Of a stretch of 64,000 nucleotides of DNA, positions 14,592-59,302 are shown piece after piece. The stretch covers positions 310,001 to 374,000 of the forward strand of contig NZ_CAJQTX010000009.1 of the NCBI RefSeq assembly GCF_907163085.1, given 5' to 3'. This DNA is from Candidatus Accumulibacter sp. ACC003 (lineage in GTDB: Bacteria; Pseudomonadota; Gammaproteobacteria; Burkholderiales; Rhodocyclaceae). The translations under genes were made by a program, and so were the position numbers. Each line of letters begins with the position of its first letter. Position 1 is the first letter of the stretch. The notes under the pieces are model-generated. The model was not told where the DNA came from. It did not search any database and saw only the letters and a list, made by a program, of their open reading frames with translations.

Positions 14592-14660
14592 GCGGCGGCA
14601 AACGAGCACCGCCTGCCGGCAGCAAGGCCGGTGACTGCGCACACCTGACGGGAGGACGAG

Positions 14661-39462: not shown

Positions 39463-39489
39463 TAAACTTCGCCAGCCGAATGCCGATAA
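39463..39489 (+). promoter_or_regulatory. FliA (sigma-28) promoter of fliC
   Basis: TAAACTTC at 39463-39470, 11 bases, then GCCGATAA at 39482-39489. The -10 is perfect and the -35 is TAAA plus a partial match, at the exact FliA spacing (consensus TAAAGTTT-N11-GCCGATAA). Transcription would begin near 39496, 146 bases before the fliC ATG. It shows that flagellin is a late, class 3 gene here. Confidence 0.88.
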
Positions 39490-44052: not shown

Positions 44053-45150
44053 ATGATCCGCCCGGAAATCGCCACCCGAATACAGCCGTCGGCTGACCTG
44101 GCGTTGCGGCCGGCTCCGCCAGCGCAGGAAATCACCGACAAACTGCCTGGCCTGGTCGCCGGGCAACGGCTGCTCGCCGAAATCCAGTCGCTGATGCCCA
44201 ATGGCACCTACCGCGCGCTGATCAACCAGCGCAGTGTCACCCTCGCGCTACCCTTCGCCGCCAAGAGCGGCGACGCGATCGAGCTGGAAGTCGCCGAGAG
44301 CGACGGCAAGCTGACCCTGGCGGTCCTTGCCCGAGCCGGGTCGGACGCCAGCAAGGCGGGCGGCGAAGCCGCCACCAGCCTGAGCCGCACCGGGCAACTG
44401 ATCAGCGATCTGCTGACGGGTAGCCGCGATGGCAAAGCGCCCGCCGCGGCGCTGCCGCTCAACGGCAATCGACCGATCGCCGCCGCGCCGCCGAGCAACG
44501 GGCAGGCCCTGGTGCCCTTGCTCAAGCAGGCGCTCATCCAGAGCGGCATGTTTTACGAAGCGCACCAGGCCGAATGGGTAGAGGGTCGCTACAGCAAAGC
44601 GCAGTTGCTGCAGGAACCACAGGGCAAGCTGGCACCCGCAAGCACCGCAGCACAAGGCGCCCCAGCCACTGCGGGCGCGCCGTTGCCGAGCCCGGCGAGC
44701 GCGACCAGCCAGTCGGCTCAGGCGGCGGCGCCATCGCAGGCTGCCCAGCCGGTCGCCCCACAGGCCCAGGCGCTCGTCCAGCAGCAACTCGAAGCCTTCG
44801 CCAGCCAGAACTTTTCCTGGCAGGGACAGATCTGGCCCGGGCAGCAACTGGATTGGGAAATCGAAAAGCAGGCCGACGGCCGCGCCAGCGACGACGACAG
44901 CCCCGGCGAAAAATGGCAGACGCGGCTGCGCCTGACGCTGCCCAGGCTCGGCGAGGTCGACGCCCGATTGCACATCGAGGGTCAACAGCTTACGCTGACC
45001 GTCGCTGCCGGCGATGCGCAAACGCGCGCACTGTTGCGCCGCGAGGCTGCCAACCTGCACAGCCAGCTGGAACAGGCGGGACTGGACCTCGCGTCACTGG
45101 CTATCGGCGCCCCACAGGAGAATGAAGCGCATGTCCAGCTCGCAGACTGA
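44053..45150 (+). CDS. FliK-like hook-length control domain protein
   Basis: 365 residues. An N-terminal beta-rich part (about 30-110) is followed by a low-complexity Ala/Gln/Pro linker (about 195-250) and a C-terminal Flg_hook (FliK C-terminal) domain. The latter shows W-Q-T-R-L-R-L-T-L-P-R-L-G-E-V-D-A-R-L, then L-R-R-E-A-A-N-L-H-S-Q-L-E-Q-A-G-L. FliK measures hook length and switches the export apparatus; this copy sits in the filament operon, so it may be a second FliK-like protein. It follows the fliT-like gene after 4 bases and overlaps the glycosyltransferase start by 20 bases. Confidence 0.82.
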   Translation: MIRPEIATRIQPSADLALRPAPPAQEITDKLPGLVAGQRLLAEIQSLMPNGTYRALINQRSVTLALPFAAKSGDAIELEVAESDGKLTLAVLARAGSDASKAGGEAATSLSRTGQLISDLLTGSRDGKAPAAALPLNGNRPIAAAPPSNGQALVPLLKQALIQSGMFYEAHQAEWVEGRYSKAQLLQEPQGKLAPASTAAQGAPATAGAPLPSPASATSQSAQAAAPSQAAQPVAPQAQALVQQQLEAFASQNFSWQGQIWPGQQLDWEIEKQADGRASDDDSPGEKWQTRLRLTLPRLGEVDARLHIEGQQLTLTVAAGDAQTRALLRREAANLHSQLEQAGLDLASLAIGAPQENEAHVQLAD

Positions 45151-48067
45151 CGAAACGCAGCTTTCACCCGCAGGGCGCATGGCGCCTCGGCAGCTGACGC
45201 TTGACGAGACGCTTGCCCAAGCGCTCGGCAAGGCGCTCGCCTGCCACCATGCCGGTCAGCTCAACGAAGCCGAACAACTTTATCGGGCAATCGTGCGGGC
45301 GATGCCAAATCACGCCGAAGCTAATCACCAGCTGGGTCTGCTGGAAAAAGAACGGCAGCAGCCTGCCGCCGCCCTACCGCATTTCCTGGCAGCACTCGAA
45401 GCCAGCCCGGAGTCCCATCGCTACTGGCTGAGCTACATCGAGGCGATGCTGCTGGCAGGCCAGAACGACGCCGCGCGCGGAGTGCTCGCGCTCGGCCGGC
45501 AACACGGCCTGGCCGGTGAAGCCGTCGACGCCCTGGCGCGGCGCCTGGAGGATAGTGGCCAGGACAAACCCATCCCGAAAGAGCCAGAGCATGCTCAGAA
45601 ACCGGCAGCGCGCAAGCCGCCGGCCAGAAGCGCCAGCAAGCGCAGCGCGGCACCAAGCGACCAGGAAATGGACACGCTGGTCGAACTGTTCAATGCCGGG
45701 CGCCATGGCGAGGGAGAAAATCTGGCCACGGCACTGACCGAGCGCTTCCCGGAGCACGGTTTTGGCTGGAAAGTGCTGGGGGCGCTGCGCAAGTCGCAGG
45801 GGCGCAATGCAGAAGCGCTGACCGCGATGCAAAACGCCGTACGCCTGCTGCCACGCGACGCGCAAGTACACAGTAACCTCGGACTGGTATTGGCCGACCT
45901 GGGGCAAGCGATCGAAGCCGAAGCGTGCCAGCGGCGAGCGCTCAAGATCAACCGCCAGTTCGCCGAAGCACACTACAACCTGGGCAAGCTCCTCGGGGCA
46001 CAGGAACGCCACCAGGAAGCGCTGAGCAGTTATCGGCGCGCAGTGGCTTTGAAGCCTGACTTTGCCATCGCCCACAGCAACCTGGGAAACACCCTGGTGG
46101 CGCTGGAACGTCTCACGGAGGCCGAGGCGGCTTACCGGCGAGCGCTGAAGTCGCAACCAAACCTGGCCGAGGCGCACAACAACCTTGGCAGAAGCCTCAA
46201 GATGCAAAGCCGGCTAGACGAAGCGGAAGCCAGTTACCGACGGGCTCTGGAACTCAAGCCGGATTACGCCGAAGCGCATAGCAACCTCGGAGAAGTGCTG
46301 TCGGGACAGGGCAAACTGAGCGAAGCGGAGACCGCCGTGCGCCGTGCACTGGAGCTCAAACCCGATCTTGCCGAAGCATATTACAACCTGGGCAACGTCC
46401 TCTGCGACCTGAAGCGTCTCGCCGAAGCCGAAGCCGCGTGGCGCAGTGCGTTGGCCCACAAAGCAGATTTTGCCGAAGTGCTGGTAGTCATGGGCTCATC
46501 GTTCAAAGGCCAGGGGCGACTCGAAGACGCGGAGAATTGCCTGCTCCGGGCGCTGGAGTTGAAACCTGACTTTGCCGTGGCGCGCTACAACCTGGGCAAC
46601 GTCTTCCATGACCAGAGCCGCTTTGGCGATGCCGAAGCGAGCTTTCGCGGCGCGCTGGAGCTCTCGCCCAACATGGCCAATGCCTTCCTCAACCTCGGCG
46701 TGGTGCTGAACGCACTCGGCCGCTACATAGAGGCTGACGAGGCCTATGAGCGGGCGCTGGAGTTGCAACCCCACTACCCGCTGGCGTATAGCAACACGCT
46801 TTACAGCCACAGCCACAACGAAGCGGTCGATGCGCAGAAGCTGTTCGCCAGACACTGCGGCTTTGGCGAACGCTTTGAAGCCCCGCTGCGCCCTGACTGG
46901 CAGCCGCACAGCAATGGCAAAGATCCCGAGCGACGCCTGCAGGTAGGGATCGTGTCGGGCGACTTCCACAATCACGCCGTTGCCAACTTCATCGAACCGG
47001 TACTCATACACCTCGCCGACTCCGAGCGACTCTCGCTCCACGCCTACGACAACAGCCCCGTCGACGACCACGTGACACAGCGCCTGCGCTGCCACTTCGC
47101 GCACTGGCATCCGGTTACCGGCGTTTCCGACGCTGACCTCGCCGACCATGTCCGTGCCGACGCGATTGACATTCTCATCGACCTGACCGGTCACACCGCG
47201 CATAGCCGACTACTTAGCTTTGCTCGCAAACCGGCACCGCTACAGGCGAGCTGGATAGGCTACCCGGGCACCACTGGCCTGCAGGCGATGGATTACTTTG
47301 TCGCCGATCCTTTCTTTTTGCCGGGTAGCGAGTTTGACGAGCTGTTCACCGAGAAGATCGTTCGCCTGCCGGCGACGGCACCCTTCCTGCCTTTCGCCGG
47401 CGCGCCAGAGGTAGCTGCGCTGCCGGCTCTCAGCACCGGGCATATCACCTTTGGCAGCTTCAACCGGCCAACCAAGATCAGCCCGCCGGTGATCGCGCTG
47501 TGGTCGCAACTGTTGACCGCCTTGCCCAATTCCCGGATGCTTCTGGCCGCGATGCAGCCGGACGGACGAGTCGCCCGACTAATCGAGGACTTTGCGCGCA
47601 ATGGCATCGATCGAGACCGACTGAGCTTTCAGCCGCGCTCCGATATGCCGACCTATCTGGCGCAACATCACGAAGTGGACATTTGTCTCGACACCTTCCC
47701 CTATACCGGCGCAACGACCACCTATCACGCCTTGTGGATGGGCGTCCCGACACTGACGCTGGCTGGTCGAACGGTTGCCGGGCGCCCCGGTGCAGCGATC
47801 CTCGGCCAGGTTGGACTGGAATCCTTCATCAGCCGCGATACGGCCGACTTCGTTGCCCGAGGCGTCGCCTTGGCAGCAGATATTTCGGCGTTGGCCCGCC
47901 TGCGCAGCGAACTGCGCGAGCGTCTGGGTCGGTCGGCGATGGGCCAGCCAAAACTGATTGCGGCCAGCCTCGAGCGCGCCTTGCGCATCATGTGGCAACG
48001 TTGGTGCAAGGGCCTGCCCGCCGAGGCCTTCGAGGTGTGCGCGCAGGATCTCCAGGATCCATGCTAG
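45131..48067 (+). CDS. TPR-GT41 (SPINDLY/OGT-type) protein glycosyltransferase, likely flagellin-specific
   Basis: 978 residues from the ATG at 45131, with AGGAG ten bases upstream. An ATG at 45122 is too close to that site. Order: three degenerate TPRs (about 20-130), a basic Ala/Lys/Pro linker (about 140-175), then about eleven 34-residue TPRs up to 550. The C-terminus is a GT41 catalytic domain (about 590-970) with G-I-V-S-G-D-F-H-N-H-A-V (His615 at the position of the OGT active-site histidine). Lys782 lies in R-P-T-K-I-S-P, and F-P-Y-T-G-A-T-T-T-Y-H-A-L-W-M-G-V-P-T-L forms the nucleotide-binding loop. The gene overlaps the FliK-like gene, so it is made with the flagellar proteins. Caulobacter FlmG is a flagellin glycosyltransferase with TPR and GT-B parts, a good precedent. 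I infer O-glycosylation of the Ser/Thr-rich flagellin. The sugar donor is unknown. Confidence 0.9.
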   Translation: MSSSQTDETQLSPAGRMAPRQLTLDETLAQALGKALACHHAGQLNEAEQLYRAIVRAMPNHAEANHQLGLLEKERQQPAAALPHFLAALEASPESHRYWLSYIEAMLLAGQNDAARGVLALGRQHGLAGEAVDALARRLEDSGQDKPIPKEPEHAQKPAARKPPARSASKRSAAPSDQEMDTLVELFNAGRHGEGENLATALTERFPEHGFGWKVLGALRKSQGRNAEALTAMQNAVRLLPRDAQVHSNLGLVLADLGQAIEAEACQRRALKINRQFAEAHYNLGKLLGAQERHQEALSSYRRAVALKPDFAIAHSNLGNTLVALERLTEAEAAYRRALKSQPNLAEAHNNLGRSLKMQSRLDEAEASYRRALELKPDYAEAHSNLGEVLSGQGKLSEAETAVRRALELKPDLAEAYYNLGNVLCDLKRLAEAEAAWRSALAHKADFAEVLVVMGSSFKGQGRLEDAENCLLRALELKPDFAVARYNLGNVFHDQSRFGDAEASFRGALELSPNMANAFLNLGVVLNALGRYIEADEAYERALELQPHYPLAYSNTLYSHSHNEAVDAQKLFARHCGFGERFEAPLRPDWQPHSNGKDPERRLQVGIVSGDFHNHAVANFIEPVLIHLADSERLSLHAYDNSPVDDHVTQRLRCHFAHWHPVTGVSDADLADHVRADAIDILIDLTGHTAHSRLLSFARKPAPLQASWIGYPGTTGLQAMDYFVADPFFLPGSEFDELFTEKIVRLPATAPFLPFAGAPEVAALPALSTGHITFGSFNRPTKISPPVIALWSQLLTALPNSRMLLAAMQPDGRVARLIEDFARNGIDRDRLSFQPRSDMPTYLAQHHEVDICLDTFPYTGATTTYHALWMGVPTLTLAGRTVAGRPGAAILGQVGLESFISRDTADFVARGVALAADISALARLRSELRERLGRSAMGQPKLIAASLERALRIMWQRWCKGLPAEAFEVCAQDLQDPC

Positions 48068-48238
48068 ACCGCGCGGCGCATCTCGCATCCAGCGACCATG
48101 TCGACGGGCGTGCGGCGGCGAGTTCCCGCGTCGCCCGAGCGCCGACCGGCGCCGTGCCGCCAATCGCACGCGCCGACAAAGCGCTCGTGACGATGATTTC
48201 TCTCGCCAGCGACTGCACAACACCCTGGGCCGCCTGAC

Positions 48239-48919
48239 ATGGAGCGCGTAAAACTCATCATCTACGGTAACGGCCAGATGGCGCGCATGTTCCTTCATTT
48301 CGCACGCAGCGAATTCGACGTACTCGCCTTCACGGTGGACCGTGCGGTCTTGAACGAGACCGAAATCGAGGGTCTACCGGTGCTTGCCTTCGATCAACTT
48401 GAGCAGCAGTTTTCGCCAGGCGAGCACAAATTGATCACCGCCGTCGGCTACCTGGAAATGAACGAACTGCGCGCGCAAAAGTACGCCGAGGCACGCGCCA
48501 GAGGGTATCAATTCGCCAACTACATTCACCCGTCGGTGGTTTGGCACGCCAACATCATCGCCGGGGAAAACAACGTCGTTCTCGACCACGTGGCGATCCA
48601 TCCCTACACACGACTCGGCAACAGCAACTTCATCTGCAGCAACGCCTCGATTGGCCACGGCTGCACCATCGGGGACAATTGCTGGATCAACTCGGGCGTT
48701 GCCATCGGCGGTGAAACGCGACTCGGCGACGGCTGCTTCCTGGGACTTAACGCCACCATCGGCGACAACATCGCGCTGGCAGCTGGCTGCTACATTGGTG
48801 CGAACACGCTGCTGACGCGTAGCACGCAAGCCGAAGAGGTGTACATCTCCGGCAATGGCGAACGTTTCCCGCTCGCCGCCAAAGGCTTCCAACAGTTTAT
48901 TTCGCGTACGCCCCGCTGA
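48239..48919 (+). CDS. PglD/NeuD-like sugar O/N-acyltransferase (left-handed beta-helix)
   Basis: 226 residues. The N-terminal Rossmann-like domain (about 1-85) has I-I-Y-G-N-G-Q-M-A-R, and the hexapeptide-repeat beta-helix (about 95-210) has N-Y-I-H-P-S-V-V, A-S-I-G-H-G-C-T-I-G-D-N-C-W-I-N, and L-G-D-G-C-F-L-G. This is the PglD/NeuD/VioB architecture. Such enzymes acylate the amino group of a UDP- or dTDP-4-amino-sugar. It is preceded by 171 bases without a gene and followed 5 bases later by the acyl ligase. The acyl donor here could be acetyl-CoA, or the product of the ligase-ACP system encoded next. Confidence 0.88.
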   Translation: MERVKLIIYGNGQMARMFLHFARSEFDVLAFTVDRAVLNETEIEGLPVLAFDQLEQQFSPGEHKLITAVGYLEMNELRAQKYAEARARGYQFANYIHPSVVWHANIIAGENNVVLDHVAIHPYTRLGNSNFICSNASIGHGCTIGDNCWINSGVAIGGETRLGDGCFLGLNATIGDNIALAAGCYIGANTLLTRSTQAEEVYISGNGERFPLAAKGFQQFISRTPR

Positions 48920-48924
48920 CCACC

Positions 48925-50478
48925 ATGCCCGATAGTCTGTGCGCTTCGCCCATCTACCAGCGCTTCCAGCAGTGCGCGACGGCCAGCCCGGACAAGTCTG
49001 CGCTGGTCGTCGGCGACGACTGCCGCAGCTACCGCGAACTGCTGATGCAGGTCGATGCCCTGGCCGACGCCCTGGCCGCCGCCGGGCTGCGCTGCGGCGA
49101 GCACATTGGCGTGCTGCTCCCCAACTGCCCGGAGTTCGCCGTCGTCCTGCTGGCCGCCGCCCGCCTCGGCGCAGTCATCGTTCCGCAAAGCATGGGGCTG
49201 GCCGCCGCAGCGCTGGAAAACACCTTCACCAGCGCCGCTGTACAACACCTCGTCGCCTGGGCGGGTGCTGCCGACAAGCTCAGCCCGGCAACACTGGCGC
49301 TGGCCGATCGGGGCTTGCGCTTGAGCGTCGGCGGATCGCTGCCGGGCTGGACGGCGCTGACGGCAATGATGACCGCCGACCACCCTGGAAGCTCTGCCAC
49401 GCCCCTCGTCAAAGGCGAATTGCCCTTCTTGATGGTGCTCACCTCGGGCTCCACGGGCGAACCGAAACCGATCCTGCTCAGCCAGCAGACGAAGATCCTG
49501 CGTGCCGAAGCGGCGGCCAGCTTGTACGGTGTCGGCGCCGCCGACATCACCCTGGCGGCGACGCCGCTCTACCACTCCCTGGCTCAGCGCCTGCTGCTGA
49601 TGCCCTTGATGGCCGGTGGTACGAGCATCGTGATGGCGCATTTCTCAGCGGCCGCCTGGATCGACACCGTGCTGCGCTATCAGGTCAGCTTTTCGATCGC
49701 CGTGTCCTCGCAACTCAAGCAGATCCTGGCTCATCTGATCGCCTCCGGCCAAGCGCTGCCCTCTTTACGTTGCCTGGTATCGTCGTCGGCGCTGCTCGAC
49801 GACGATACCAAGGGGCAACTGCTGGCGCATCTGCAATGCGACTTCCACGAATGTTACGGCGCCTCCGAAATCGCCATTGCCACCAACCTGTCGCCGGCCG
49901 CTGCCGGGCACAAGCTCGGTTCGGTAGGCACGGCCATTCCCGGAACCGAAGTCGTGATCGTCGGCGAAGACGGTAAGCCGGCAGCCGTCGGCAACTCCGG
50001 CGAGATCGTCTGCCGCACGCCGATGTGCTACAGCGGTTACTACCGCCAAGCGGAGGCTACCGCCGCCGCCCGCTGGGGTGACTTTTTCCGCACCGGCGAC
50101 CTGGGGACTATGGACGACCAGGGTTTCCTCTATTTCCGTGGCAGAATCAAGGACATCATCATTACGGGTGGGGTCAACGTTTACCCCAGGGATATCGAGG
50201 ATATCGTCTCCAGCCATCCCGCGGTCAGGGAATGCGCGGCGATTCCCCTGCTCGACGAGCAGCTGGGCGAAGTAGCTGCAGTGGTGGTCGCCTTCAAGAA
50301 CCCCGACAAGCCGCCCGCGCTGCGCGATATACAACGCCTGTGCATGCAAAGCCTTGGCGACTTTCAGCAGCCTCGCCGTTTCTTCGTACTTCCCGAATTG
50401 CCCAGGAACGCCATGGGCAAGCTCGACAAGCCAGCGTTGCGGCACCTCTATTCATCGACCAACCGGAGTTCGTGCTAA
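48925..50478 (+). CDS. Acyl-adenylating ligase (ANL superfamily, acyl-CoA/ACP synthetase)
   Basis: 517 residues. The P-loop is T-S-G-S-T-G-E-P-K-P near 173, the A5 motif is C-Y-G-A-S-E, the A7-A8 region is G-D-L-G-T-M-D-D-Q-G-F-L-Y-F-R-G-R-I-K-D, and the C-terminal lysine is Lys499 in A-M-G-K-L-D. It activates a carboxylic acid to acyl-AMP and passes it to CoA or a pantetheine arm. A stand-alone acyl carrier protein is encoded two genes on, so loading of that ACP is the likely role. The acid cannot be read from sequence. It starts 5 bases after the acyltransferase gene, with Gfo/Idh/MocA 2 bases after. Confidence 0.92.
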   Translation: MPDSLCASPIYQRFQQCATASPDKSALVVGDDCRSYRELLMQVDALADALAAAGLRCGEHIGVLLPNCPEFAVVLLAAARLGAVIVPQSMGLAAAALENTFTSAAVQHLVAWAGAADKLSPATLALADRGLRLSVGGSLPGWTALTAMMTADHPGSSATPLVKGELPFLMVLTSGSTGEPKPILLSQQTKILRAEAAASLYGVGAADITLAATPLYHSLAQRLLLMPLMAGGTSIVMAHFSAAAWIDTVLRYQVSFSIAVSSQLKQILAHLIASGQALPSLRCLVSSSALLDDDTKGQLLAHLQCDFHECYGASEIAIATNLSPAAAGHKLGSVGTAIPGTEVVIVGEDGKPAAVGNSGEIVCRTPMCYSGYYRQAEATAAARWGDFFRTGDLGTMDDQGFLYFRGRIKDIIITGGVNVYPRDIEDIVSSHPAVRECAAIPLLDEQLGEVAAVVVAFKNPDKPPALRDIQRLCMQSLGDFQQPRRFFVLPELPRNAMGKLDKPALRHLYSSTNRSSC

Positions 50479-50480
50479 AC

Positions 50481-51608
50481 ATGGCCGAGAGCTTCCTCGC
50501 CCCGCTGCGTCTCGGTTTCATCGGTGGCGCGATTACCTCGGCGGTAGGCTACACGCACTTCAATTCGAGTCGTCTGGACGGCCATTTCCGCGTCGATTGC
50601 GGCTGTTTCAGCCGTCGTGCCAGCAACAATGAGGAAACAGCGCGCACCTACGGCGTCGCCAGCGAACGCACCCACGCCACCTGGCAGCAACTCCTCGAAC
50701 TTGAGCGCGACGCGCTCGATGCCATCGTGATCCTTACACCAACTCCCGATCATCGCCAGATCGCCATCGCCGCGCTCGACGCCGGCTACGCCGTAATCTG
50801 TGAAAAGGCGCTGGCGACATCCAGCGCAGAGTGCCGTGCGATCGGCGATGCGGTAAATCGCAACGGCGGCTTCCTGGCGGTTACCTACAACTATTCAGGC
50901 TATCCCATGGTGCGGGAACTGCGCCAACTCATCGCCAACGGCAGTCTGGGTCGCATTCAGCAGATCCACATCGAGATGCCGCAGGAAGGCTTCCTGCGCC
51001 AGGGCGCAGCCCCCCAGGCGTGGCGCCTCAAGGACTACGACATCCCGACGGTGTCGCTCGATCTCGGGGTACACGTACATCACCTGACTCATTTTCTGAC
51101 TGGTGGCCAGCGCCCGCTGGAAGTCGTCGGCGAACAGAGTACCTACGGGCAGTTCGAGGGCATCATCGACAACGTCTATTGCCTGGCCCGATACAACGAC
51201 GAGCTGCGCGTCCAGGCCTGGTACGGCAAGACCGCGCTAGGCTACCGCAATGGCCTGCGCATTCGCGTATTCGGTAGCCTGGCCAGCGCCGAATGGCTGC
51301 AGATGGAACCCGAAGATCTACGGCTTAATCGCGCCGATGGTAGCCACATCGTCCTCGACCGCGGGTCGGGCGACGCCGACGTCGCCCAACAGCCGCGCTA
51401 CAATCGTTTCAAGGCTGGCCACCCCTCTGGCTTCATCGAAGCTTTTGCCAACCTTTATGCGGACATCGCCGATCATCTGCGCCACTACCGCGCACGGCAG
51501 CCGACACCGAGTGAGTTCGTCTTCGGTGCGCGGGAATCAGAACAAGGGCTGCGCTTCCTCGAAGCGATCTCGCGCTCAGCCCGGACCAGACAATGGGAGG
51601 CACCGTGA
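50481..51608 (+). CDS. Gfo/Idh/MocA-family oxidoreductase
   Basis: 375 residues from the ATG at 50481, two bases after the ligase stop. The Rossmann motif is L-G-F-I-G-G-A-I-T-S-A-V near residue 12, the E-K-A-L motif (C-E-K-A-L-A-T) is near 110, and D-L-G-V-H-V-H-H-L lies near 195. The E-K-P/A lysine is the usual catalytic residue. These NAD(P) enzymes oxidise or reduce sugars and related polyols, for example UDP-sugar 3-dehydrogenases such as WlbA. A role in making a 3-oxo or 3-amino sugar fits with the aminotransferases in this island, but the substrate is not known. Confidence 0.9.
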   Translation: MAESFLAPLRLGFIGGAITSAVGYTHFNSSRLDGHFRVDCGCFSRRASNNEETARTYGVASERTHATWQQLLELERDALDAIVILTPTPDHRQIAIAALDAGYAVICEKALATSSAECRAIGDAVNRNGGFLAVTYNYSGYPMVRELRQLIANGSLGRIQQIHIEMPQEGFLRQGAAPQAWRLKDYDIPTVSLDLGVHVHHLTHFLTGGQRPLEVVGEQSTYGQFEGIIDNVYCLARYNDELRVQAWYGKTALGYRNGLRIRVFGSLASAEWLQMEPEDLRLNRADGSHIVLDRGSGDADVAQQPRYNRFKAGHPSGFIEAFANLYADIADHLRHYRARQPTPSEFVFGARESEQGLRFLEAISRSARTRQWEAP

Positions 51609-51630
51609 GTGCCCAGAACAAGGACTGCCC

Positions 51631-51879
51631 ATGACCGACGATTCAATTAAAAACTTCCTTGGCCAGTTGCTCAGCGAAAAGGGCTCACTGCCCGACGCCG
51701 TATCGCTAGCGTCTTACCGCTATCTTGCCAACGGCCACATAGACTCGCTTTCCTTCATTAAATTCACCTTCCGCATCGAGGAGCATTTCGGCTTTCGCTT
51801 TTCCGAGTCGGACCTGCTTAATGATCAAATAAAAACCGTCGGCGGTCTCGCCACCCTGATTGCCACGAAGCTGCGTTAA
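51631..51879 (+). CDS. Stand-alone acyl carrier protein
   Basis: 82 residues from the ATG at 51631 with AGGA upstream. A four-helix ACP with phosphopantetheine site Ser39 in G-H-I-D-S-L-S-F-I-K. Only one such ACP is in the island. It is very different from housekeeping AcpP, which has D-S-L-D-T-V-E. With the ligase and the acyltransferase it would carry an activated acyl group. It lies 22 bases after the MocA gene and 24 bases before the aminotransferase. Confidence 0.88.
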   Translation: MTDDSIKNFLGQLLSEKGSLPDAVSLASYRYLANGHIDSLSFIKFTFRIEEHFGFRFSESDLLNDQIKTVGGLATLIATKLR

Positions 51880-51903
51880 CCCTGGCCCACCGAGAAGGTA
51901 TTC

Positions 51904-53205
51904 ATGCACGCCCAAGAAATAGACAAGGCCGAGAGTAACGTGTCACTGCTAAGCGCCTACGGGAAATACCTGCTTCCTGTCCTCACGTTCCGCGATATAG
52001 TCCTCGTGCGCGGCCAAGGCTGCTACGTCTGGGACGCCAGCGGAAACAAATACCTGGACTTGAATAGCGGCCAGTTTTGCTCGATACTCGGCCACTCCAA
52101 CCCGGGAGTCGCCCGGCGAATGGTCGAGATCTGCCAAACCTTGCAGCACACGGATACCTCAACCCTGTCGGCACCGGTTCTACAGGCCGCCAGGAAAATT
52201 CACGACTGCGCACCGGAAATGAATGCTCGGACAATTTTCTTGTCGACTGGTGCGGAAGCGGTAGAATGCTGCCTCAAGTATGCGAAGCACATAAAGGAGC
52301 GGCCTGGAATTATCTCGTTTGATCGCGGTTACCACGGTCTGACGCACGGAACTGCAGCGTATTCGTTATCTCGAGACAAAATCAGACCGCCGGTCGACTA
52401 TTCATACGAAACCCCGGCACCTCTCGTCTATGGTGATGCCGATGACGCCCCAGAAATCGAGCGCTGCATCGAGCGCTTTCGGGAGATTGTCGCCTCTGAC
52501 CGGGAAAATATTGCCGCCGCGATCTTTGAGCCGATCATTTCCGGCGGCGGCTTCTTTTTTCCCCCGCGCCGGTATTTCAAGGCGATCAGGAAGATCTGCG
52601 ACGACAATGACATCTTTCTTATTTTCGACGAATGCCAGACCGGATTCGGGAGAACGGGCAGCTGGTTCTATTATCAGCAGCTCGAATGCATTCCGGATTT
52701 TGTCGTCTGTGCCAAAGCCATGGGCCTCGGCTACCCCGTTTCGTGCGTGATCGTCAATGGCAACACCATTGCGCACGTCAAATTCGCCATGGAGTACTTC
52801 AGCTCGCACCAGAATGAAGCCTTCGCCGGCGCCCTGGTATCTTATTTGATCGACGAGATCCACGCCGGCGACCTGTTGACCATCAACAAGCACTCCGGAG
52901 CGACCCTCCTGGCGACACTGACCTCGCTCGCCCGAGAGTTTCCTGTCATCAAGAATCCAAGGGGGAAAGGGTTGATGTGCGCATTCGATCTAGACACTCC
53001 CGGAGCGGCCGACAGCAAGAAAGCCGGTGACTATTTTTGCCGAATCGCGCAGGATAATGGCTTGCTCATGCAGCACTGCAACTTCGGGAAAACGATACGC
53101 CTATTGCCAAGTTATGTCGCCGAAAAGGACGACTTCAATTTCTTTTCCGCGCAGCTGGAAAAGACACTGAGCCACTTCCAGGCTTCACTTACTCCGTCAC
53201 TCTAA
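51904..53205 (+). CDS. Class III aminotransferase (PLP)
   Basis: 433 residues. Schiff-base Lys271 in V-V-C-A-K-A-M-G-L-G-Y-P, the aspartate motif F-D-E-C-Q-T-G-F-G-R-T-G, and S-T-G-A-E-A-V-E near the start of the large domain. Class III members act on omega-amino groups, and related enzymes include glutamate-1-semialdehyde aminomutase. In this setting it could aminate an aldehyde made by the alcohol dehydrogenase at 54356, giving an amino-acyl or amino-sugar group. GC content drops visibly from here on. Confidence 0.92.
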   Translation: MHAQEIDKAESNVSLLSAYGKYLLPVLTFRDIVLVRGQGCYVWDASGNKYLDLNSGQFCSILGHSNPGVARRMVEICQTLQHTDTSTLSAPVLQAARKIHDCAPEMNARTIFLSTGAEAVECCLKYAKHIKERPGIISFDRGYHGLTHGTAAYSLSRDKIRPPVDYSYETPAPLVYGDADDAPEIERCIERFREIVASDRENIAAAIFEPIISGGGFFFPPRRYFKAIRKICDDNDIFLIFDECQTGFGRTGSWFYYQQLECIPDFVVCAKAMGLGYPVSCVIVNGNTIAHVKFAMEYFSSHQNEAFAGALVSYLIDEIHAGDLLTINKHSGATLLATLTSLAREFPVIKNPRGKGLMCAFDLDTPGAADSKKAGDYFCRIAQDNGLLMQHCNFGKTIRLLPSYVAEKDDFNFFSAQLEKTLSHFQASLTPSL

Positions 53206-53217
53206 AGAGGCATCCGA

Positions 53218-54279
53218 ATGCTGTTTTCCGATCTGGACCTGACCCATTTGCGTGCTGCGATCAACGACATCCACGAGAAGAAACTCGTCCTGTGGGGGGC
53301 CGGACGACGACTCAAGGGCTTTATTGAAGAATTCTGCGGCGAGTCAAAGCTCTTGCCAAAGCCTCTGTGCGTTTGCGACAGCACGCGCGACATTCCCGAG
53401 AAGGAACTATTTGGCATCCCGGTAATGTCATTTTCAGAGGTACGGAACATGTCCCCTCAGGATACGGTGATCATCATGACTGCCGGGCTGCTCGAGCTAC
53501 AGGCAAAGGTCGTATCTAACGAACTGTACTATTTCCCAATCTATCACTGCCGGAGTTTCGAGGCCTACTCCTACCTCCAAGAAAACATGGCAGACTGTGA
53601 CCGCTGCATTGATCTGCTAGCCGACCAGAGATCGAAAGAAGTCTATCGTAAACGCATCGAAAACATACTTTTTGGCCAACTCTGGGATCAATCGCTATAC
53701 AGCGCCAACCCCTACTTCGGGAACGAGATCAACGAAGTTCTCGACGATTCAGGCCAGCTTGTTTTTGCCGGTGCTTTCAATGGCAAGCACATCGAACGTG
53801 CAATTCTGAATAACCCCGCAATACGGGTTACCGCGTTTGAGCCAAGTACAAGCTGGTCCAGATTTCTCGCCGAAAAATTCAAGAACAACCCTCGGATTAC
53901 GATCAACAACAAAATTCTCTGGAGCGAGAATCGCTTCCTCGCATTCGACGATGACGACTCCAATGCCGGCCTTGACGCGCATGTCTGCGGGGACGCTGCG
54001 CTCACTAAGCACAAGCGCGAAGCAGTAGCCATCGACGAGTACGTCGACGGAAAAGTGTCGATGATTGCCCTCGACGTCGAGGGCTCCGAGCAACTTGCAT
54101 TGAAAGGAGCCTCCGAGACCATCGCACGTGACCATCCAAAACTATGCATCTGCCTTTACCACACGCTTGACGATTACTTCAGGATTCCCCTCCTGATCAG
54201 TGAAAACTCGGACTACCAGCTACGCGTCAAACATCATTCCTGCATTAGCGTCATCGAGACCGTTCTCTACACCGTCTAA
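53218..54279 (+). CDS. FkbM-family methyltransferase with N-terminal nucleotide-binding-like domain
   Basis: 353 residues from the ATG at 53218. The N-terminal 110 residues form a Rossmann-like unit (K-L-V-L-W-G-A-G-R-R-L-K-G-F) similar to the first domain of PglD-type proteins. The C-terminal half is an FkbM SAM methyltransferase with T-A-F-E-P-S, V-A-I-D-E-Y-V and the diagnostic I-A-L-D-V-E-G-S-E. FkbM enzymes O-methylate sugars and antibiotic hydroxyls. It is likely to methylate the sugar or acyl chain of the flagellin glycan. The codon use is more AT-rich than in the flagellar genes. Confidence 0.88.
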   Translation: MLFSDLDLTHLRAAINDIHEKKLVLWGAGRRLKGFIEEFCGESKLLPKPLCVCDSTRDIPEKELFGIPVMSFSEVRNMSPQDTVIIMTAGLLELQAKVVSNELYYFPIYHCRSFEAYSYLQENMADCDRCIDLLADQRSKEVYRKRIENILFGQLWDQSLYSANPYFGNEINEVLDDSGQLVFAGAFNGKHIERAILNNPAIRVTAFEPSTSWSRFLAEKFKNNPRITINNKILWSENRFLAFDDDDSNAGLDAHVCGDAALTKHKREAVAIDEYVDGKVSMIALDVEGSEQLALKGASETIARDHPKLCICLYHTLDDYFRIPLLISENSDYQLRVKHHSCISVIETVLYTV

Positions 54280-54355
54280 CAGCATATGAAGCCGCCTCCG
54301 TATACGCTCGGTTGTTTTTTCTTCTACGCTGGCGCTGGCCACGAAGTGTCCCCGC

Positions 54356-55522
54356 GTGCTTGACTTCACCTTCTCCTTACCGACACGGATCCTCTTCGGG
54401 TCCGGTGCACGATCGCTCCTGGAGCAGGAACTGGGTAATCATTCGATAACCCGAACTCTTCTCGTGTATGGCCGTGGCAGCGTTCATCAGAACGGTTGCC
54501 ACCAGGAAATCACCGAGATTCTGAAAACACGTCGGATACCTTGCGTTGAGCACCCGAACTGCGGGGAGGATCCGGACGACCGTTTTGTCGCTGCCGGTAC
54601 GGCGCTGGCACTGGATTGCGGCGCAGATTTTGTCATCGGATTGGGCGGCGGTTCAGCAATCGACGCGGCCAAAGCCATCGCCTTGCTGGCTGCCAACAAA
54701 GTGCCGGATATCTGGGAGTATCGGCAGCGAAGAGCGCATTTCTCGGTTCCCGCACTGCCGCTCGGCGTGGTGCTCACCACCACTGGCACCGGCAGCGAAG
54801 GCAACGGCGGATTTGTGATCAGCAGGCAGTTGACCGATGAGAAAGTTGCTTTCACCGATCTATCGACACGCCCGCGCTTTGCTTACTGCAACCCAAATTT
54901 CACCAGAACGCTACCGCGTGCGGTATTGACTGACAATCACACGGACGTTCTTTCGCATCTGTTGGAACAGTTCTTTTCCATGGATGAAACACCTGGAATC
55001 GTCGACGCGATGATCCTGGAGGCCATGGACTATCTGCTACGCAATGCCCACGCCCTGGAATCCTGGCAGGATTCGTATAGCACGCGCGCGAACATGATGT
55101 TCGCTTCGACGATTTCACTTTCTTATCTATTCTCGTGCGGAAAGAAGATTCCATGGATATTGCATCATCTTGCGCATGCGCTTGCGGCGATTCGGCCAAT
55201 ATCTCATGGCGCATCGCTCAGGATTATTATCCCCGGCTGGCTCGCCTGGCTGGCGAGCCAACCGGCTTACGGGGTACGCAGCAATGACCTCTGTAAAAAG
55301 CTATCTGTCGTGCAGCCGGCGGAACTGGCGGCGTTTTTTGTTGACCATTTTTCGTCGCTATCCAGCCAACTTCATCCTCAGTTGAGCCGCTCTGAAAAGA
55401 GTCGAATGGTAGAGACTCTGTGCGCAGACGAGGCCTTTCTGGCCCGAGCAGGCCTTCGCAAGGCAGATCTGAGAAACATCGTCGACTGGACGCCGAACGA
55501 CGTCAAATGCTCGCCCGCCTGA
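54356..55522 (+). CDS. YqhD-like metal-dependent alcohol dehydrogenase
   Basis: 388 residues from a GTG at 54356; no in-frame ATG lies nearby. The family III (iron-type) ADH pattern is complete: G-G-G-S-A-I-D-A-A-K near 100, T-G-T-G-S-E-G-N-G-G near 145, and metal ligands Asp197, His201, His270 and His284 at the FucO/YqhD spacing. It interconverts an alcohol and an aldehyde with NAD(P)H. In this island it could make the aldehyde that the class III aminotransferase aminates, or reduce an acyl-derived aldehyde. It could also be a hitchhiker. It has no clear ribosome site. Confidence 0.88.
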   Translation: MLDFTFSLPTRILFGSGARSLLEQELGNHSITRTLLVYGRGSVHQNGCHQEITEILKTRRIPCVEHPNCGEDPDDRFVAAGTALALDCGADFVIGLGGGSAIDAAKAIALLAANKVPDIWEYRQRRAHFSVPALPLGVVLTTTGTGSEGNGGFVISRQLTDEKVAFTDLSTRPRFAYCNPNFTRTLPRAVLTDNHTDVLSHLLEQFFSMDETPGIVDAMILEAMDYLLRNAHALESWQDSYSTRANMMFASTISLSYLFSCGKKIPWILHHLAHALAAIRPISHGASLRIIIPGWLAWLASQPAYGVRSNDLCKKLSVVQPAELAAFFVDHFSSLSSQLHPQLSRSEKSRMVETLCADEAFLARAGLRKADLRNIVDWTPNDVKCSPA

Positions 55523-55597
55523 TTGCCGCTGCTATGGACTTTGGGCCGGCAACCACCCGGCTTCTCGACCACCCGATCGCATGACCGAGGATTGGCC

Positions 55598-56707
55598 TTG
55601 ACCAAAACGATAGTACTTGTTTTTCCGCTGGATATCGATGAGGCGAGCGCCTTCATCCGCGTCGCCCGCGCGCTTGATATTAAAATCATCGGTGCCAGTT
55701 CAGCGATGGCTGACCGAAATGGCGAGCCGATCGATTTGTTCATTCGGCTGCCATTCATTACCGACCCGGAGTTCGACGAGGCCTTGGGGCTGGCGATCGC
55801 GCGGCACTCGATCACCAGGATCTATTCGCCACATCAGGGCGTCTGGCGGCACTTGAAAAATCTTCTGCAGCGAGGTTCTGGAGGCCCTTCATTCGAGTTG
55901 TGCCAACCCGACCCATTTAGCGTCACCATGCAGCTTTTCAGCCCTCACGAAGACTGGGCGGCGTCCGTGGTGATCGACACGACGAGCGAAGAAATCCTGG
56001 GCAAGGCAACGATCCGTCCACCGCTGTCGCGTAGCTGCTATTCAGCGCTCCATCGCCAGTTCCTGAGCACACCGGGCCAGTGTGACGAGGGGAAACTACG
56101 CGCCCTATGCCACATCGTCCGTCAGCTTCCTCGCGGCGATTTTCTTGAGGTCGGGAGCCTTTATGGCCGTTCAGCGTTTGCCTTGGGTTACCTCGCTAGC
56201 CGTCACAATCTGGGAAGCCTGATTTGCATAGACCCCTGGAACACCAGCGAGCTGACCGATCAAGGCCCTCAAGCGGCAGTGCTGAACAGCGAACTCACCA
56301 ATACCGACATCGACGTCGAGCAGATTTTTCGAATCTTTCTGTCCACAATGGCGCTCCTCGACAACGTTGCTTACCTCCGCAAGACGTCCGCAGCCGCCGT
56401 CGCCATGTATCAGGCCGCGCGCAAGACGCGCGAGTTGCACAGTCCGGAGTTGGGCAAAGTTCCGCTGGCCGAGCAGCTGAGTCTACTGCACATTGATGGC
56501 AACCACCGCTACGACCAGGTGCGAACCGATGTCGAGACGTGGAGTCCCTTTCTCGCACCAGGCGGCTGGCTGCTACTCGACGATTACGTCTGGGCGTTCG
56601 GTGATGGCCCCCGTCGAGTGGGCGACGAATTGCTGGCAACACCGCTGTACAACTCGGCGTATGTCAGCGGCGACACGCTGTTCCTGCGCCGCAGCGAAAG
56701 CAGCTGA
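55598..56707 (+). CDS. Class I SAM methyltransferase with N-terminal pre-ATP-grasp-like segment
   Basis: 369 residues from a TTG at 55598, with GAGG upstream; the in-frame part before it lacks a ribosome site. The N-terminal 120 residues (V-L-V-F-P-L-D-I-D-E-A-S-A-F, then I-Y-S-P-H-Q-G-V-W-R-H-L) look like the first domain of ATP-grasp enzymes, without the rest of that fold. From about 190 it is a class I methyltransferase of the Methyltransf_24 type: F-L-E-V-G-S-L-Y-G-R-S-A-F-A-L-G, L-I-C-I-D-P-W-N, and L-L-H-I-D-G-N-H-R-Y. The combination is unusual. It probably methylates a precursor or the finished glycan. Confidence 0.82.
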   Translation: MTKTIVLVFPLDIDEASAFIRVARALDIKIIGASSAMADRNGEPIDLFIRLPFITDPEFDEALGLAIARHSITRIYSPHQGVWRHLKNLLQRGSGGPSFELCQPDPFSVTMQLFSPHEDWAASVVIDTTSEEILGKATIRPPLSRSCYSALHRQFLSTPGQCDEGKLRALCHIVRQLPRGDFLEVGSLYGRSAFALGYLASRHNLGSLICIDPWNTSELTDQGPQAAVLNSELTNTDIDVEQIFRIFLSTMALLDNVAYLRKTSAAAVAMYQAARKTRELHSPELGKVPLAEQLSLLHIDGNHRYDQVRTDVETWSPFLAPGGWLLLDDYVWAFGDGPRRVGDELLATPLYNSAYVSGDTLFLRRSESS

Positions 56708-56736
56708 GTGGCAAAAACCACGACGAGCATTACCGC

Positions 56737-57849
56737 TCAGACGGGCGCGCGGATGATCTCGATGATCCGATCGACTGTTCCAGAATCAAGGCCAGGAAAG
56801 ATCGGCAGGCAAAGGACACGATTGGCGATGCTTGTCGCTACCGGCAGGTTGGCGGGGGCTGCCGAGGCAATTCCCCGGTACATGGGAAGATTGCTGATCA
56901 GCGGAAAGAAGTAGCGGCGGACGTGGATGTCCTTGCTGCGGAACACTTCGTACAGCTGGTCGCGGGACAGCGCGTACTCGGGGCCGATGATCAGCGGGAA
57001 GTAGCCAGCATTCGGCTTCACGCCGTCAGAAATGGTCAGGCAGTGCACGCCAGCCACCTGTGCCAGCGCTTGACGGTAACGCTGGTCGATGTGCAGCCGT
57101 GCGGCAATAGCCTGGGCCACGTGCTTGAGCTGCAGCAAGCCCAGGGCCGCCTGAAACTCGTTCATCTTGCCGTTGATACCGGGTGCGACAACGGTGACTT
57201 CGTCGGCGAAACCGAAATTCTTGAGGTAATCGATACGCTGCTTGAGCTTCAGGTCGTGGCAGATGATCGCCCCGCCTTCAAAGGTATTGAAGACCTTGGT
57301 GGCATGGAAACTGAGCATCGCCAGGTCGCCATGATCGAGCAGCGATTGACCGCCCACCGAAACGCCAAAAGCGTGTGCCGCATCGTAGATCAGCTTCAGC
57401 CCGTAGGTGTCGGCGATCTGCTGCAGACGCTGGCTGGCACAGGGATTACCGTAGCAATGCACGGGCAGAATGGCGGTCGTCCGTGGCGTAATCGCCGCCT
57501 CGACCAGATCCTCGTCAAGGTTACAGGTATCGGCGCGAATATCGACGAAGACCGGTTTTATGCCGTTCCAGAGCAAGGCGTGCGTGGTTGCAGCGAAGGT
57601 GTAAGGCGTGGTGATGACTTCGCCGGTTACCCGCAGACTCTGCAAAGCGGTCATCAGCGCCAAGGTGCCGTTGGCAAACAGGGAGACGTAGGGAACGCCG
57701 AGATACTGCCTGAGTTGCTCCTCGAACTGCTGATGGAACGGCCCACCATTGGTAAGTCGTCCGCTCTCCCATATCTCGGCGAGATAGGGAAGAAATTCTT
57801 CCAGGGGCGGCAGATAGGGCCTGGTAAGGAGGATGGGCTTTTCTGGCAT
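56737..57849 (-). CDS. DegT/DnrJ/EryC1-type sugar aminotransferase
   Basis: 370 residues from the ATG at 57849 (an ATG at 57888 is possible). Schiff-base Lys185 in F-H-A-T-K-V-F-N-T-F-E-G-G, Asp156 in Y-D-A-A-H-A-F-G, and the N-terminal motif L-T-N-G-G-P. These enzymes aminate 3- or 4-keto nucleotide sugars. It runs opposite to the rest of the island and converges on the methyltransferase gene. Together with the PglD-like acyltransferase it forms the standard pair that makes an acylated 4-amino-sugar such as viosamine or bacillosamine. A 4,6-dehydratase to make the keto sugar is not in the window. Confidence 0.93.
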   Translation of the reverse strand: MPEKPILLTRPYLPPLEEFLPYLAEIWESGRLTNGGPFHQQFEEQLRQYLGVPYVSLFANGTLALMTALQSLRVTGEVITTPYTFAATTHALLWNGIKPVFVDIRADTCNLDEDLVEAAITPRTTAILPVHCYGNPCASQRLQQIADTYGLKLIYDAAHAFGVSVGGQSLLDHGDLAMLSFHATKVFNTFEGGAIICHDLKLKQRIDYLKNFGFADEVTVVAPGINGKMNEFQAALGLLQLKHVAQAIAARLHIDQRYRQALAQVAGVHCLTISDGVKPNAGYFPLIIGPEYALSRDQLYEVFRSKDIHVRRYFFPLISNLPMYRGIASAAPANLPVATSIANRVLCLPIFPGLDSGTVDRIIEIIRAPV

Positions 57850-58080
57850 GACTTCCAAGGCGATTGGAGATGACACGAAGCTGTTCATTATGCACCGTAT
57901 TACGGCAGCCGGGATTCTCCATTCGCCACCGACCGGCGGGCGCGACGCTCGTTTTCGCGCCGCACCGTCGCGCGCGGAGCGCTCGGAGTAAGATGCAGAA
58001 AAACAGCGTCAGCCGAGCAAATGAGCAACTCGCCGAGAGCTGCCTGACGGCGACGACGATGAAGCAGGAGAGCGAAGACA

Positions 58081-58407
58081 ATGCGCAAAGCTCGGGATGA
58101 TGGGCTGAAGAACGCCGTCGCGCTGGCCTACAGCCAGACCGACGCGGCGCCACGCGTCGTCGCCAAGGGCCGGGGCCTGATGGCCGAGCAGATCATTGCC
58201 CGCGCCCATGAGCACGGGGTCTACGTACACGAATCGCCCGAGCTGGTCTCACTACTGATGCAGGTCGACCTGGACCAGCACATCCCGCCGCAGCTGTATC
58301 TGGCGATCGCCGAACTGCTGGCCTGGCTGTACCGGCTGGAGAGCGGCCAGGCGGCGCCGGCGGCGGCCACTCTTGTCGCCGCAGTCGAAGCGAATCGGCA
58401 GCCCTGA
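58081..58407 (+). CDS. Stand-alone FlhB C-terminal-like protein
   Basis: 108 residues from the ATG at 58081, AGGAG 10 bases upstream. It matches the cytoplasmic tail of FlhB/YscU export-switch proteins: A-V-A-L-A-Y, P-R-V-V-A-K-G-R-G-L-M-A, then H-G-V-Y-V-H-E-S-P-E-L and I-P-P-Q-L-Y-L-A-I-A-E-L-L-A-W-L-Y. It lacks the transmembrane half and the NPTH autocleavage site. Such short homologues (FhlB-type) occur in many beta-proteobacteria and may replace the released tail of FlhB. It is divergent from the aminotransferase gene. Confidence 0.9.
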   Translation: MRKARDDGLKNAVALAYSQTDAAPRVVAKGRGLMAEQIIARAHEHGVYVHESPELVSLLMQVDLDQHIPPQLYLAIAELLAWLYRLESGQAAPAAATLVAAVEANRQP

Positions 58408-58498: not shown

Positions 58499-59302
58499 AT
58501 GGAAGCAACGGATTTTCAGCCACAACCGCCAGCGGAAGACCTGCACTTCGAGATCGAACGAGCCGGGGACTACAGTCAATACCTGCTGCACTCGAAGGCC
58601 GAGATTGTCGCCGCGCTGCGCTCGCTGATCCAGCGGCGCGCCCTGGTCAGCGCGTGCATCGACCCCGGCCGGATCTTCCTGCTGACTTCCGTGCTCGACC
58701 TTGACTCCGATAGCGGCGAGCTGCTCCTCGACTGGGGTCACGACGAGCACGTCAACGGCCAGGCATTGGCGGCCAGCCAGCTTATCCTGAGCGCCGAAGT
58801 CGACAAGGTGAAGGTGCAATTCACGCTGCACGATCTCGCGGAGGGCAGCCTCGACGGGCGGCCGGCTTTTCGCGCAGCACTGCCGAACGAAGTCCTGCGT
58901 CTGCAACGTCGCGAATATTTTCGCCTATCGACGCCGATCGCCAGGCCGGTCAAGTTCGTCACCACGATCAAACGCGTCGACGGCAGCACGCTGGTCGCCG
59001 AAGCGTCCTTGCTTGACATCAGCGGTGGTGGCGTCGGCCTGATGGCCACTCCCAGCCTGGCGGCGCTACTGCCCCGCGGCAGCACGCTCAACGACTGCAA
59101 GATGACGCTTCCCGACGAGGGTCTGCTGGTCGGCAGGCTGTGCGTGCGCAACAAGTTTGACGTCACCACCAGGGGTGGCGCGCGCTACGTTCGCGTCGGC
59201 TGTGAATTCATCAATCTTCCGGGTGCGCGAATGAGCATGGTGCAACGCTACATCACGCGCATCGAGCGCGAGCGCAAGGCGCGGCTGAGCGGCATGGCCT
59301 GA
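58499..59302 (+). CDS. ycgR: YcgR-type PilZ flagellar brake protein
   Basis: 267 residues. An N-terminal YcgR domain (about 15-130) precedes a PilZ domain (about 135-255) with the cyclic-di-GMP motif R-R-E-Y-F-R near 140 and D-I-S-G-G-G-V-G near 175. Both halves of the binding signature (RxxxR and D/NxSxxG) are complete. Cyclic-di-GMP-loaded YcgR binds the flagellar motor and slows swimming. It links the cyclic-di-GMP protein at 11283 and the flagellar genes functionally, though any direct connection is inference. The ribosome site is weak. Confidence 0.92.
   Translation: MEATDFQPQPPAEDLHFEIERAGDYSQYLLHSKAEIVAALRSLIQRRALVSACIDPGRIFLLTSVLDLDSDSGELLLDWGHDEHVNGQALAASQLILSAEVDKVKVQFTLHDLAEGSLDGRPAFRAALPNEVLRLQRREYFRLSTPIARPVKFVTTIKRVDGSTLVAEASLLDISGGGVGLMATPSLAALLPRGSTLNDCKMTLPDEGLLVGRLCVRNKFDVTTRGGARYVRVGCEFINLPGARMSMVQRYITRIERERKARLSGMA

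Follow-up and report, generated by a model that had tools for sequence, protein, structure and literature searches.

A putative, horizontally exchanged flagellin O-glycosylation island in the flagellar cluster of Candidatus Accumulibacter

Introduction

The flagellin of Burkholderia cenocepacia is glycosylated with a transferase of the tetratricopeptide repeat (TPR) type. The glycan there is Qui4N (4-amino-4,6-dideoxyglucose, or viosamine) acylated with 3-hydroxybutyrate, Qui4N(3-OHBut) (PMC12355684). In Pseudomonas syringae, an N-acylated, O-methylated viosamine on flagellin has been proven by mutants and mass spectrometry (Yamamoto 2011, PMC3927599), and in Caulobacter the TPR part of FlmG binds the flagellins, the protein being both required and sufficient for their modification (PMC7591256). 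Enterobacteriaceae harbor flagellin islands in which a GT41 transferase is accompanied by DegT, NeuD, FkbM, acyl carrier protein (ACP) and CoA-ligase genes (De Maayer and Cowan 2016, PMC4875605). Here, we describe an island built around a TPR-GT41 transferase in the flagellar cluster of Candidatus Accumulibacter sp. ACC003 (GCF_907163085.1; 5.39 Mb in 13 contigs). It lies in a window of 64,000 nucleotides, the whole stretch of DNA that was analyzed (NZ_CAJQTX010000009.1, here C9, positions 310001–374000). Genomes, contigs and loci are denoted G, C and L. On balance, we favor the reading that this is a horizontally exchanged flagellin O-glycosylation island, whose GT41 would place an acylated Qui4N.

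A preliminary description of the locus regarded it as the most likely undescribed system in the window, a view that has lost ground in light of the GT41 islands of Enterobacteriaceae (PMC4875605) and the N-acyl-viosamine island of P. syringae (PMC3927599): the island is a variant of flagellin islands already known, those of the GT41 and viosamine types. What is newly added is an insertion site that is empty in some genomes and decayed in another, a GT41-DegT frame that stays constant while its cassettes are exchanged, and an AMP-forming ligase (AMP-ligase) that alternates with an ATP-grasp ligase beside a Gfo/Idh/MocA dehydrogenase (MocA). FlmG, which had been named as a precedent for the TPR-GT fusion, is not the nearest precedent for the glycan.

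How does this locus compare with the described systems, as far as the cited passages go? Like the enterobacterial islands, it is a variable insert at a flagellin locus, with a SPINDLY-domain GT41, the gene classes listed above, further methyltransferase genes and horizontal exchange; those islands, however, lie downstream of fliC, whereas this one sits between fliK and an flhB-like gene (PMC4875605). Most enterobacterial GT41s carry a methyltransferase domain, unlike the one here, and the passages that describe them name no MocA, class III aminotransferase or iron-type alcohol dehydrogenase (Fe-ADH), all three of which are present here (PMC4875605). The enterobacterial donor was guessed to be a GlcNAc derivative, whereas a DegT-derived sugar is predicted here (PMC4875605). 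With the viosamine island of P. syringae and the a-type island of P. aeruginosa, the locus shares an aminotransferase of putative VioA type, a VioB acyltransferase, an ACP and a methyltransferase (PMC3927599). In P. syringae, however, the acyl chain is made by an ACP synthase and reductase (vioS, vioR), where this island has AMP-ligase, MocA and aminotransferase, and the 1,173-aa VioT caps a rhamnose chain of a kind not predicted here (PMC3927599). The predicted glycan, an N-acylated Qui4N, would be like that of B. cenocepacia (PMC12355684).

As in Caulobacter, the TPR part is predicted from the genes to bind flagellin and the GT part to modify it in the cytoplasm; the Caulobacter donor, on the other hand, is pseudaminic acid made with NeuB, which is missing from this locus (PMC7591256). 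The preliminary description concluded that the glycan must differ from pseudaminic acid. Since there is no nonulosonate synthase at the locus, it probably does, although "must" is too strong. The sfmABCDE operon of Shewanella oneidensis likewise modifies flagellin with an ATP-grasp protein (SO_3265, 412 aa) and a methyltransferase, and SO_3265 resembles, in a comparison of size only, the ATP-grasp proteins that alternate with AMP-ligase beside MocA. Unlike the present locus, that operon makes a NeuB-based nonulosonate with a 236–264 Da substituent and, as described, contains no MocA (PMC3765264).

Insertion site and gene content

The island (45131–57888 of the window) fills about 13 kb from fliK to the flhB-like gene and consists of the TPR-GT41 gene, eight biosynthetic genes in the same orientation and a DegT gene that converges on them, all ten of them open frames (Table 1). 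To its left lie fliC, flaG, fliD, fliS, a small open reading frame and fliK, and to its right a gene resembling the FlhB C-terminus and a YcgR/PilZ gene. The GT41 gene, starting at 45131, shares 20 bases with fliK and is separated from the acyltransferase gene by 171 bases. Open frames, Pfam matches and the fliK overlap bear out the preliminary description of a TPR-GT41 that overlaps the flagellar operon and is joined by nine biosynthetic genes. Its gene classes stand, with three corrections: the DegT gene is encoded by the minus strand, the end of that gene is at 57888, and a gap follows the GT41 gene. The G+C content is 0.55 in 51631–56707, compared to 0.65 outside 45151–58080.

A survey of 28 Accumulibacter genomes identifies the island as an insertion between fliK and the flhB-like gene. 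Six of them (G206, G204, G201, G212, G214, G186) have an empty site, in which the flhB-like gene comes immediately after fliK; the site went unscored in G125, G220, G203, G208, G211 and G210, mostly because of contig ends. At the left junction, DNA homology to four of the empty-site genomes stops at 45101–45110, and at the right junction homology to empty-site genomes returns at 58086 or later. In G206, homology stops at 45101 of the window and returns at 58086, with only 33 bases between the two points in G206 itself. FliD is present in 25 of the 28 genomes and in all 23 of good quality, which makes the flagellar cluster as such a general feature of the genus. Other islands with distant GT41-like proteins follow fliK in G207 (L166, 4573–12415) and G018 (L170, 4393–13798). 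On an rpoB tree from which G219 was left out, the presence or absence of the island requires at least six changes over 20 scored genomes, 12 of which have it. Its place inside the flagellar cluster and its status as an insertion relative to empty sites support the original suggestion of a flagellin-glycosylation island built on a TPR-GT41. (G219 has two rpoB copies, a misfit rpoB row and a contamination value of 7, which suggests a mixed assembly.)

Table 1. The island and its flagellar surroundings, in window coordinates.
Feature	Position	Strand	Basis
Sigma-28-like promoter box, TAAA-N15-GCCGATAA, upstream of fliC	39463..39489	+	Best pattern-scan match of the region
fliC, flagellin, presumed acceptor	39642..41387	+	Flagellin_N and Flagellin_C; start and ribosome site read
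fliK, left border of insertion	44053..45150	+	Flg_hook
TPR-GT41 protein O-glycosyltransferase (predicted)	45131..48067	+	TPR array and Glyco_transf_41; frame open from 45014
NeuD/VioB-like hexapeptide N-acyltransferase (predicted)	48239..48919	+	Hexapeptide/PglD_N; TIGR03570
AMP-forming acyl ligase	48925..50478	+	AMP-binding and AMP-binding_C
Gfo/Idh/MocA dehydrogenase	50481..51608	+	GFO_IDH_MocA
Acyl carrier protein with DSL motif	51631..51879	+	PP-binding; sequence read
Class III aminotransferase	51904..53205	+	Aminotran_3
FkbM-family methyltransferase	53218..54279	+	Methyltransf_21 (FkbM)
Iron-type alcohol dehydrogenase, GTG start	54356..55522	+	Fe-ADH
Methyltransf_24 protein	55523..56707	+	Methyltransf_24; probable TTG start at 55598 (hand count)
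DegT aminotransferase, DesI-like (dTDP-4-keto-6-deoxyglucose 4-aminotransferase)	56737..57888	-	DegT_DnrJ_EryC1
FlhB C-terminus-like gene, right border of insertion	58081..58407	+	Bac_export_2
YcgR-like PilZ protein, conserved right flank	58499..59302	+	PilZN and PilZ

A constant frame and exchangeable cassettes

Which parts of the island are exchanged? A GT41 search (E ≤ 1e-60) gave matches in 20 of the 28 genomes. Fourteen of these have a close orthologue (at least 52% across most of its length, or across the part read) and the remainder weaker relatives only; within the 14, the gene is cut short in the stretch read from G200 and G199 and fragmented in G209. A close DegT (at least 79% identity) occurs in 12 of the 28, every one of which also has the close GT41 (Fisher p = 6e-6, genomes being taken as independent and kinship ignored), and in nine of the 12 it adjoins the cassette. 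GT41 and DegT are the constant parts, and the cassette between them is the part exchanged among strains.

G213 has the cassette genes of the window at 60–77% identity, minus the Fe-ADH, which is therefore optional. G079 retains the hexapeptide enzyme, ligase, MocA and ACP (53–78% to the window), while a GT2-radical SAM protein and a B12-radical SAM protein replace the aminotransferase, FkbM and Fe-ADH. A second kind of cassette, found in G202, G205, G158, G215 and, as far as read, G200, comprises three methyltransferases, WbqC, a hexapeptide enzyme (36–37% to that of the window) and a ligase (26–28%); WbqC was not found in the stretch read from G200. A third kind occurs in G216, G199 and G217, and G218 and G219 have WbqC plus one further gene of the second kind. 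The different cassettes repeat the same classes: hexapeptide acyltransferase, ligase and methyltransferases. Cassette kind requires four changes on the rpoB tree over 12 genomes, with G079 scored as the window's kind. The window DegT is closest to those of G199 and G216 (87%), both with cassettes of another kind, but the window cassette is closest to those of G213, G079 and Thiobacillus; the cassette has thus moved independently of the frame. The flagellar coating seems to be exchanged between strains, with relatives carrying other versions or none.

In G209, the window's sister on the rpoB tree, GT41 fragments (L158, on C2 of G209, 12010–15103) occupy an otherwise empty site with no cassette, and the DegT found elsewhere in that genome is only 63% identical. 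The transferase seems to have decayed along with loss of the supply genes. In G079 (Accumulibacter aalborgensis; C35, L159 and L017), a 2703-codon open frame from L159:10924 holds three tandem GT41 domains, two of them 91% alike.

Enzymes of the island and a proposed pathway

The GT41 matches Glyco_transf_41 with 150.4 bits behind a long TPR array (Pfam), and its catalytic domain can be aligned over its full length with Thermobaculum OGT (5djs) and Arabidopsis SPINDLY (7y4i/8dtf). The hexapeptide enzyme is NeuD/PglB/VioB-like (TIGR03570, 153.7 bits, just below the cut-off of 160.8), and its nearest solved relative is a perosamine N-acetyltransferase. Fatty acyl-CoA synthetases are among the relatives of the AMP-ligase, and 4-aminobutyrate aminotransferase and dialkylglycine decarboxylase are those of the class III aminotransferase. 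The Fe-ADH matches YqhD, as originally described, as well as butanol dehydrogenases, and in the alignment with YqhD the metal-site Asp and all three metal-site His are conserved; together with the class III aminotransferase, it could convert an alcohol to an amine. A structure model of MocA (pLDDT 93) gave Foldseek matches to inositol-dehydrogenase-like proteins and general sugar/cyclitol dehydrogenases, and its predicted fold would be compatible with action on an acid or a sugar alike. For DegT, 2po3 is the sole PDB match at E ≤ 1e-40. RmlA (509.9 bits) and RmlB (501 bits), both above cut-off, are encoded elsewhere in the genome. Pfam and NCBIfam profiles detected no domains of an ACP synthase/reductase pair (vioS, vioR) among the ten island genes.

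From these homologies, the following pathway may be proposed. RmlA and RmlB would supply dTDP-4-keto-6-deoxyglucose, which the island's DegT would convert to dTDP-Qui4N (dTDP-viosamine), a product suggested by the nearness of DegT to DesI and the presence of RmlA and RmlB in the genome. The AMP-ligase would activate a carboxylic acid and load it onto the ACP; MocA, and here also the class III aminotransferase and Fe-ADH, would shape the acid or the sugar; and the NeuD-like enzyme would link the acyl group to the amine as an amide. Methyl groups would come from the FkbM and Methyltransf_24 proteins. Finally, still in the cytoplasm, the transferase would bind flagellin through its TPR part and move the sugar to Ser/Thr with its GT41 part, prior to export. 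Glycosylation of flagellin is very likely, and a Qui4N core is likely as well; N-acylation by ligase, ACP and hexapeptide enzyme is probable, slightly less so than the core, while an amino-bearing acyl group is a tentative suggestion. The dTDP donor of the GT41 is a prediction from its neighbor genes only.

A more speculative idea, on the doubtful side, is that of a GT41 subfamily that uses dTDP-linked N-acyl-4-amino-4,6-dideoxyglucose on flagellin, with a constant GT41-DegT pair and plug-in acyl cassettes, the acyl group being an O-methylated, amino-bearing acid made by ligase, ACP, MocA, class III aminotransferase, Fe-ADH and FkbM. If this were true, the flagellar surface would change by swapping the acyl maker alone. 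The Accumulibacter group is central to wastewater phosphorus removal, and a two-part design, in which acyl cassettes are swapped around an unchanging transferase and amino sugar, would make flagellar surface change directly testable. There would also be a donor prediction for a flagellar GT41 group that was earlier suggested, from the domain alone, to use GlcNAc derivatives (PMC4875605).

The MocA module beyond the genus

MocA was found in 12 of 199 genomes of the family (E ≤ 1e-30). Matches on plasmids (208 records) are all below 60% identity and, among the 25 listed, all but three are below 35%. A set of 86 MocA loci was assembled from the best 80 of 552 loci from named genomes and eleven regions of relatives, with the duplicates L017 and L019 and the distant members L025–L027 left out. 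The gene set of the island, which the preliminary description proposed to seek in other genomes, recurs in Thiobacillus and partly in other Accumulibacter, and is therefore not a chance assembly. The Thiobacillus loci L029 (from Thiobacillus thioparus DSM 505) and L033 have the nine biosynthetic genes plus a GT41; L030 also has the nine, the stretch read there containing no GT41, and L031 is cut by a contig end. (L030 is labelled as a Rhizobium sp. metagenome-assembled genome; the locus is almost like that of Thiobacillus, and the bin name may be wrong.) The class III aminotransferase is present in only two of 399 genomes of the order (E ≤ 1e-110), and its close homologues that were read (window, G213, L029, L030, L031, L033) each come with MocA, ligase and ACP.

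Near MocA and on its strand, 52 of the 86 loci have an ATP-grasp ligase, 28 an AMP-ligase, none both and six neither (L044 and L105, on short contigs; L089, with its ligase on the opposite strand; L047, L091 and L096). Under independence, zero overlap would be expected with p = 4e-17, loci being taken as independent and kinship ignored. Parsimony on a quick MocA tree gives eight ligase switches over 80 loci, and well supported branches force at least four changes per label. ACP matches accompany 22 of the 29 AMP-ligase loci (either strand) and the hexapeptide enzyme 17 of them, while neither is found in any ATP-grasp locus. Ligase, ACP and often the hexapeptide enzyme thus occupy the place of one ATP-grasp enzyme of the amide-forming type. 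AMP-ligase and ATP-grasp may be read as alternative routes by which a carboxylic acid becomes attached to the amine of a sugar, MocA belonging to the acid side. Two unrelated carboxylate ligases alternating beside one MocA family provide a handle on uncharacterized acyl-sugar chemistry from Proteobacteria to Fibrobacter. No paper combining most of ATP-grasp, MocA, aminotransferase, FkbM and glycosylation was found among the open-access papers searched, which is not to claim that none is in print.

GT41 proteins above 250 bits occur in 11 of the 86 loci, all of them among the 30 that have a DegT above 300 bits (p = 2e-6, again ignoring kinship and taking loci as independent). Three of the 11 (L036, L037 and L075) have an ATP-grasp and no AMP-ligase; L075, from Leclercia, lies beside fliC and fliD. 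More distant GT41/HMW1C-like proteins, in L039, L065, L080, L103 and L107, fall below the 250-bit threshold. Since all 11 GT41 loci have the close DegT, the donor of this GT41 group probably derives from the DegT product.

Evidence against the proposed pathway

Several observations weigh against the proposal. The best NCBIfam match of DegT, to DesI, reaches 294 bits against a cut-off of 650, which leaves the substrate assignment tentative, and GT41 enzymes are known to use UDP- or GDP-sugars and are not known to use dTDP-sugars. In G217, G218 and G219 the close DegT is apart from the island, either on a different contig or at a distance of about 120 kb. Twelve of the 29 AMP-ligase loci have no recognizable hexapeptide enzyme, so that either another acyltransferase serves there or the reading is incomplete, and the Helicobacter loci L091 and L096 have the hexapeptide enzyme without either ligase. 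The same MocA with ATP-grasp occurs in Fibrobacter (e.g. L041–L043, L053), a genus not known to have flagella, and several of these loci are near GT2/ABC-2 transporter genes. Only 17 of the 86 MocA loci have a flagellar gene in the stretch read. The sole NeuB found in the genome lies on contig C10, near ABC-2 transporter and GT2 genes.

Does the type of flagellin follow the island? The central domains of the flagellins from 23 genomes form three groups: 13 are window-like (at least 69% within the group), five are of a second type and five are short or divergent. All nine other carriers with a readable flagellin are in the window-like group (Mann-Whitney p = 0.009, uncorrected; 9 carriers and 12 non-carriers, with the window, G209 and G079 excluded), but so are G209 and two genomes with an empty site, G212 and G214. 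Comparison in pairs matched on the rpoB tree, from which G079 was left out, gave no significant link (p = 0.125). G079 itself, with its triple GT41, has the second flagellin type and is a counter-example. Given these two results, flagellin type was dropped as a marker of the island and is suggestive only. The Ser/Thr content of the flagellin center did not differ (0.26–0.29 in four carriers vs. 0.23–0.29 in 11 non-carriers).

Alternative explanations

A diamino sugar is an unlikely alternative product, although one that would still be a flagellin glycan: MocA and one of the aminotransferases would act on the sugar ring, and ligase and ACP would acylate one or both amines. WbpB and WbpE offer the analogy, with oxidation followed by a second amination of the sugar ring. 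This would suit a MocA that models as a sugar/cyclitol dehydrogenase, the presence of the trio of MocA, aminotransferase and hexapeptide enzyme, and a class III aminotransferase that, with the Fe-ADH, could aminate a carbon. However, MocA is found with a carboxylate ligase in 80 of the 86 loci and with a close DegT (>300 bits) in only 30, which links it with the acid and not with any one sugar; and the PDB relatives of MocA at E ≤ 1e-25 in a profile search are inositol-dehydrogenase-like, with no WlbA or WbpB entry among them.

It is still less probable that the product of the island goes to a surface polysaccharide or to a protein other than flagellin, with the flagellar cluster a mere landing site. 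The setting of the MocA-ligase module in Fibrobacter, and the scarcity of flagellar genes around MocA at large, would be expected in that case. The GT41 gene overlaps fliK, however; the same flagellar site holds differently built GT41-like islands in other genomes; no match to a transporter or lipid-carrier transferase family turned up among the ten island genes; and TPR-GT41 enzymes are known from flagellin islands (PMC4875605).

That the GT41 transfers a nonulosonate from the distant NeuB cluster, in the manner of FlmG, and the island only decorates it, is very improbable: the genome has a NeuB next to a second TPR-GT41, and the matrix of Accumulibacter is reported to contain nonulosonates (cited in PMC13317340), but that NeuB is outside the flagellar cluster, and the GT41 is coupled to DegT within the genus and beyond. 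The preliminary description was right that the locus has no nonulosonate synthase, the only one found being that on C10, and an on-site nonulosonate route was rejected for this reason. A KdnA/KdnB-like route, in which, by analogy, Fe-ADH and DegT would act on an octulosonate, was rejected as well: the best match of DegT is DesI, the Fe-ADH matches YqhD and butanol dehydrogenases, and the cassette of G213 is without Fe-ADH.

The C10 region (83000–120800; L113, L114) contains NeuB, the ABC-2 transporter, a DegT and GT2, with the second TPR-GT41, a 712-aa frame, on the other strand, and is possibly a separate glycosylation or polysaccharide locus. A third GT41-like stretch of the same genome lies at C5:3160–5385, within a 1509-aa open frame.

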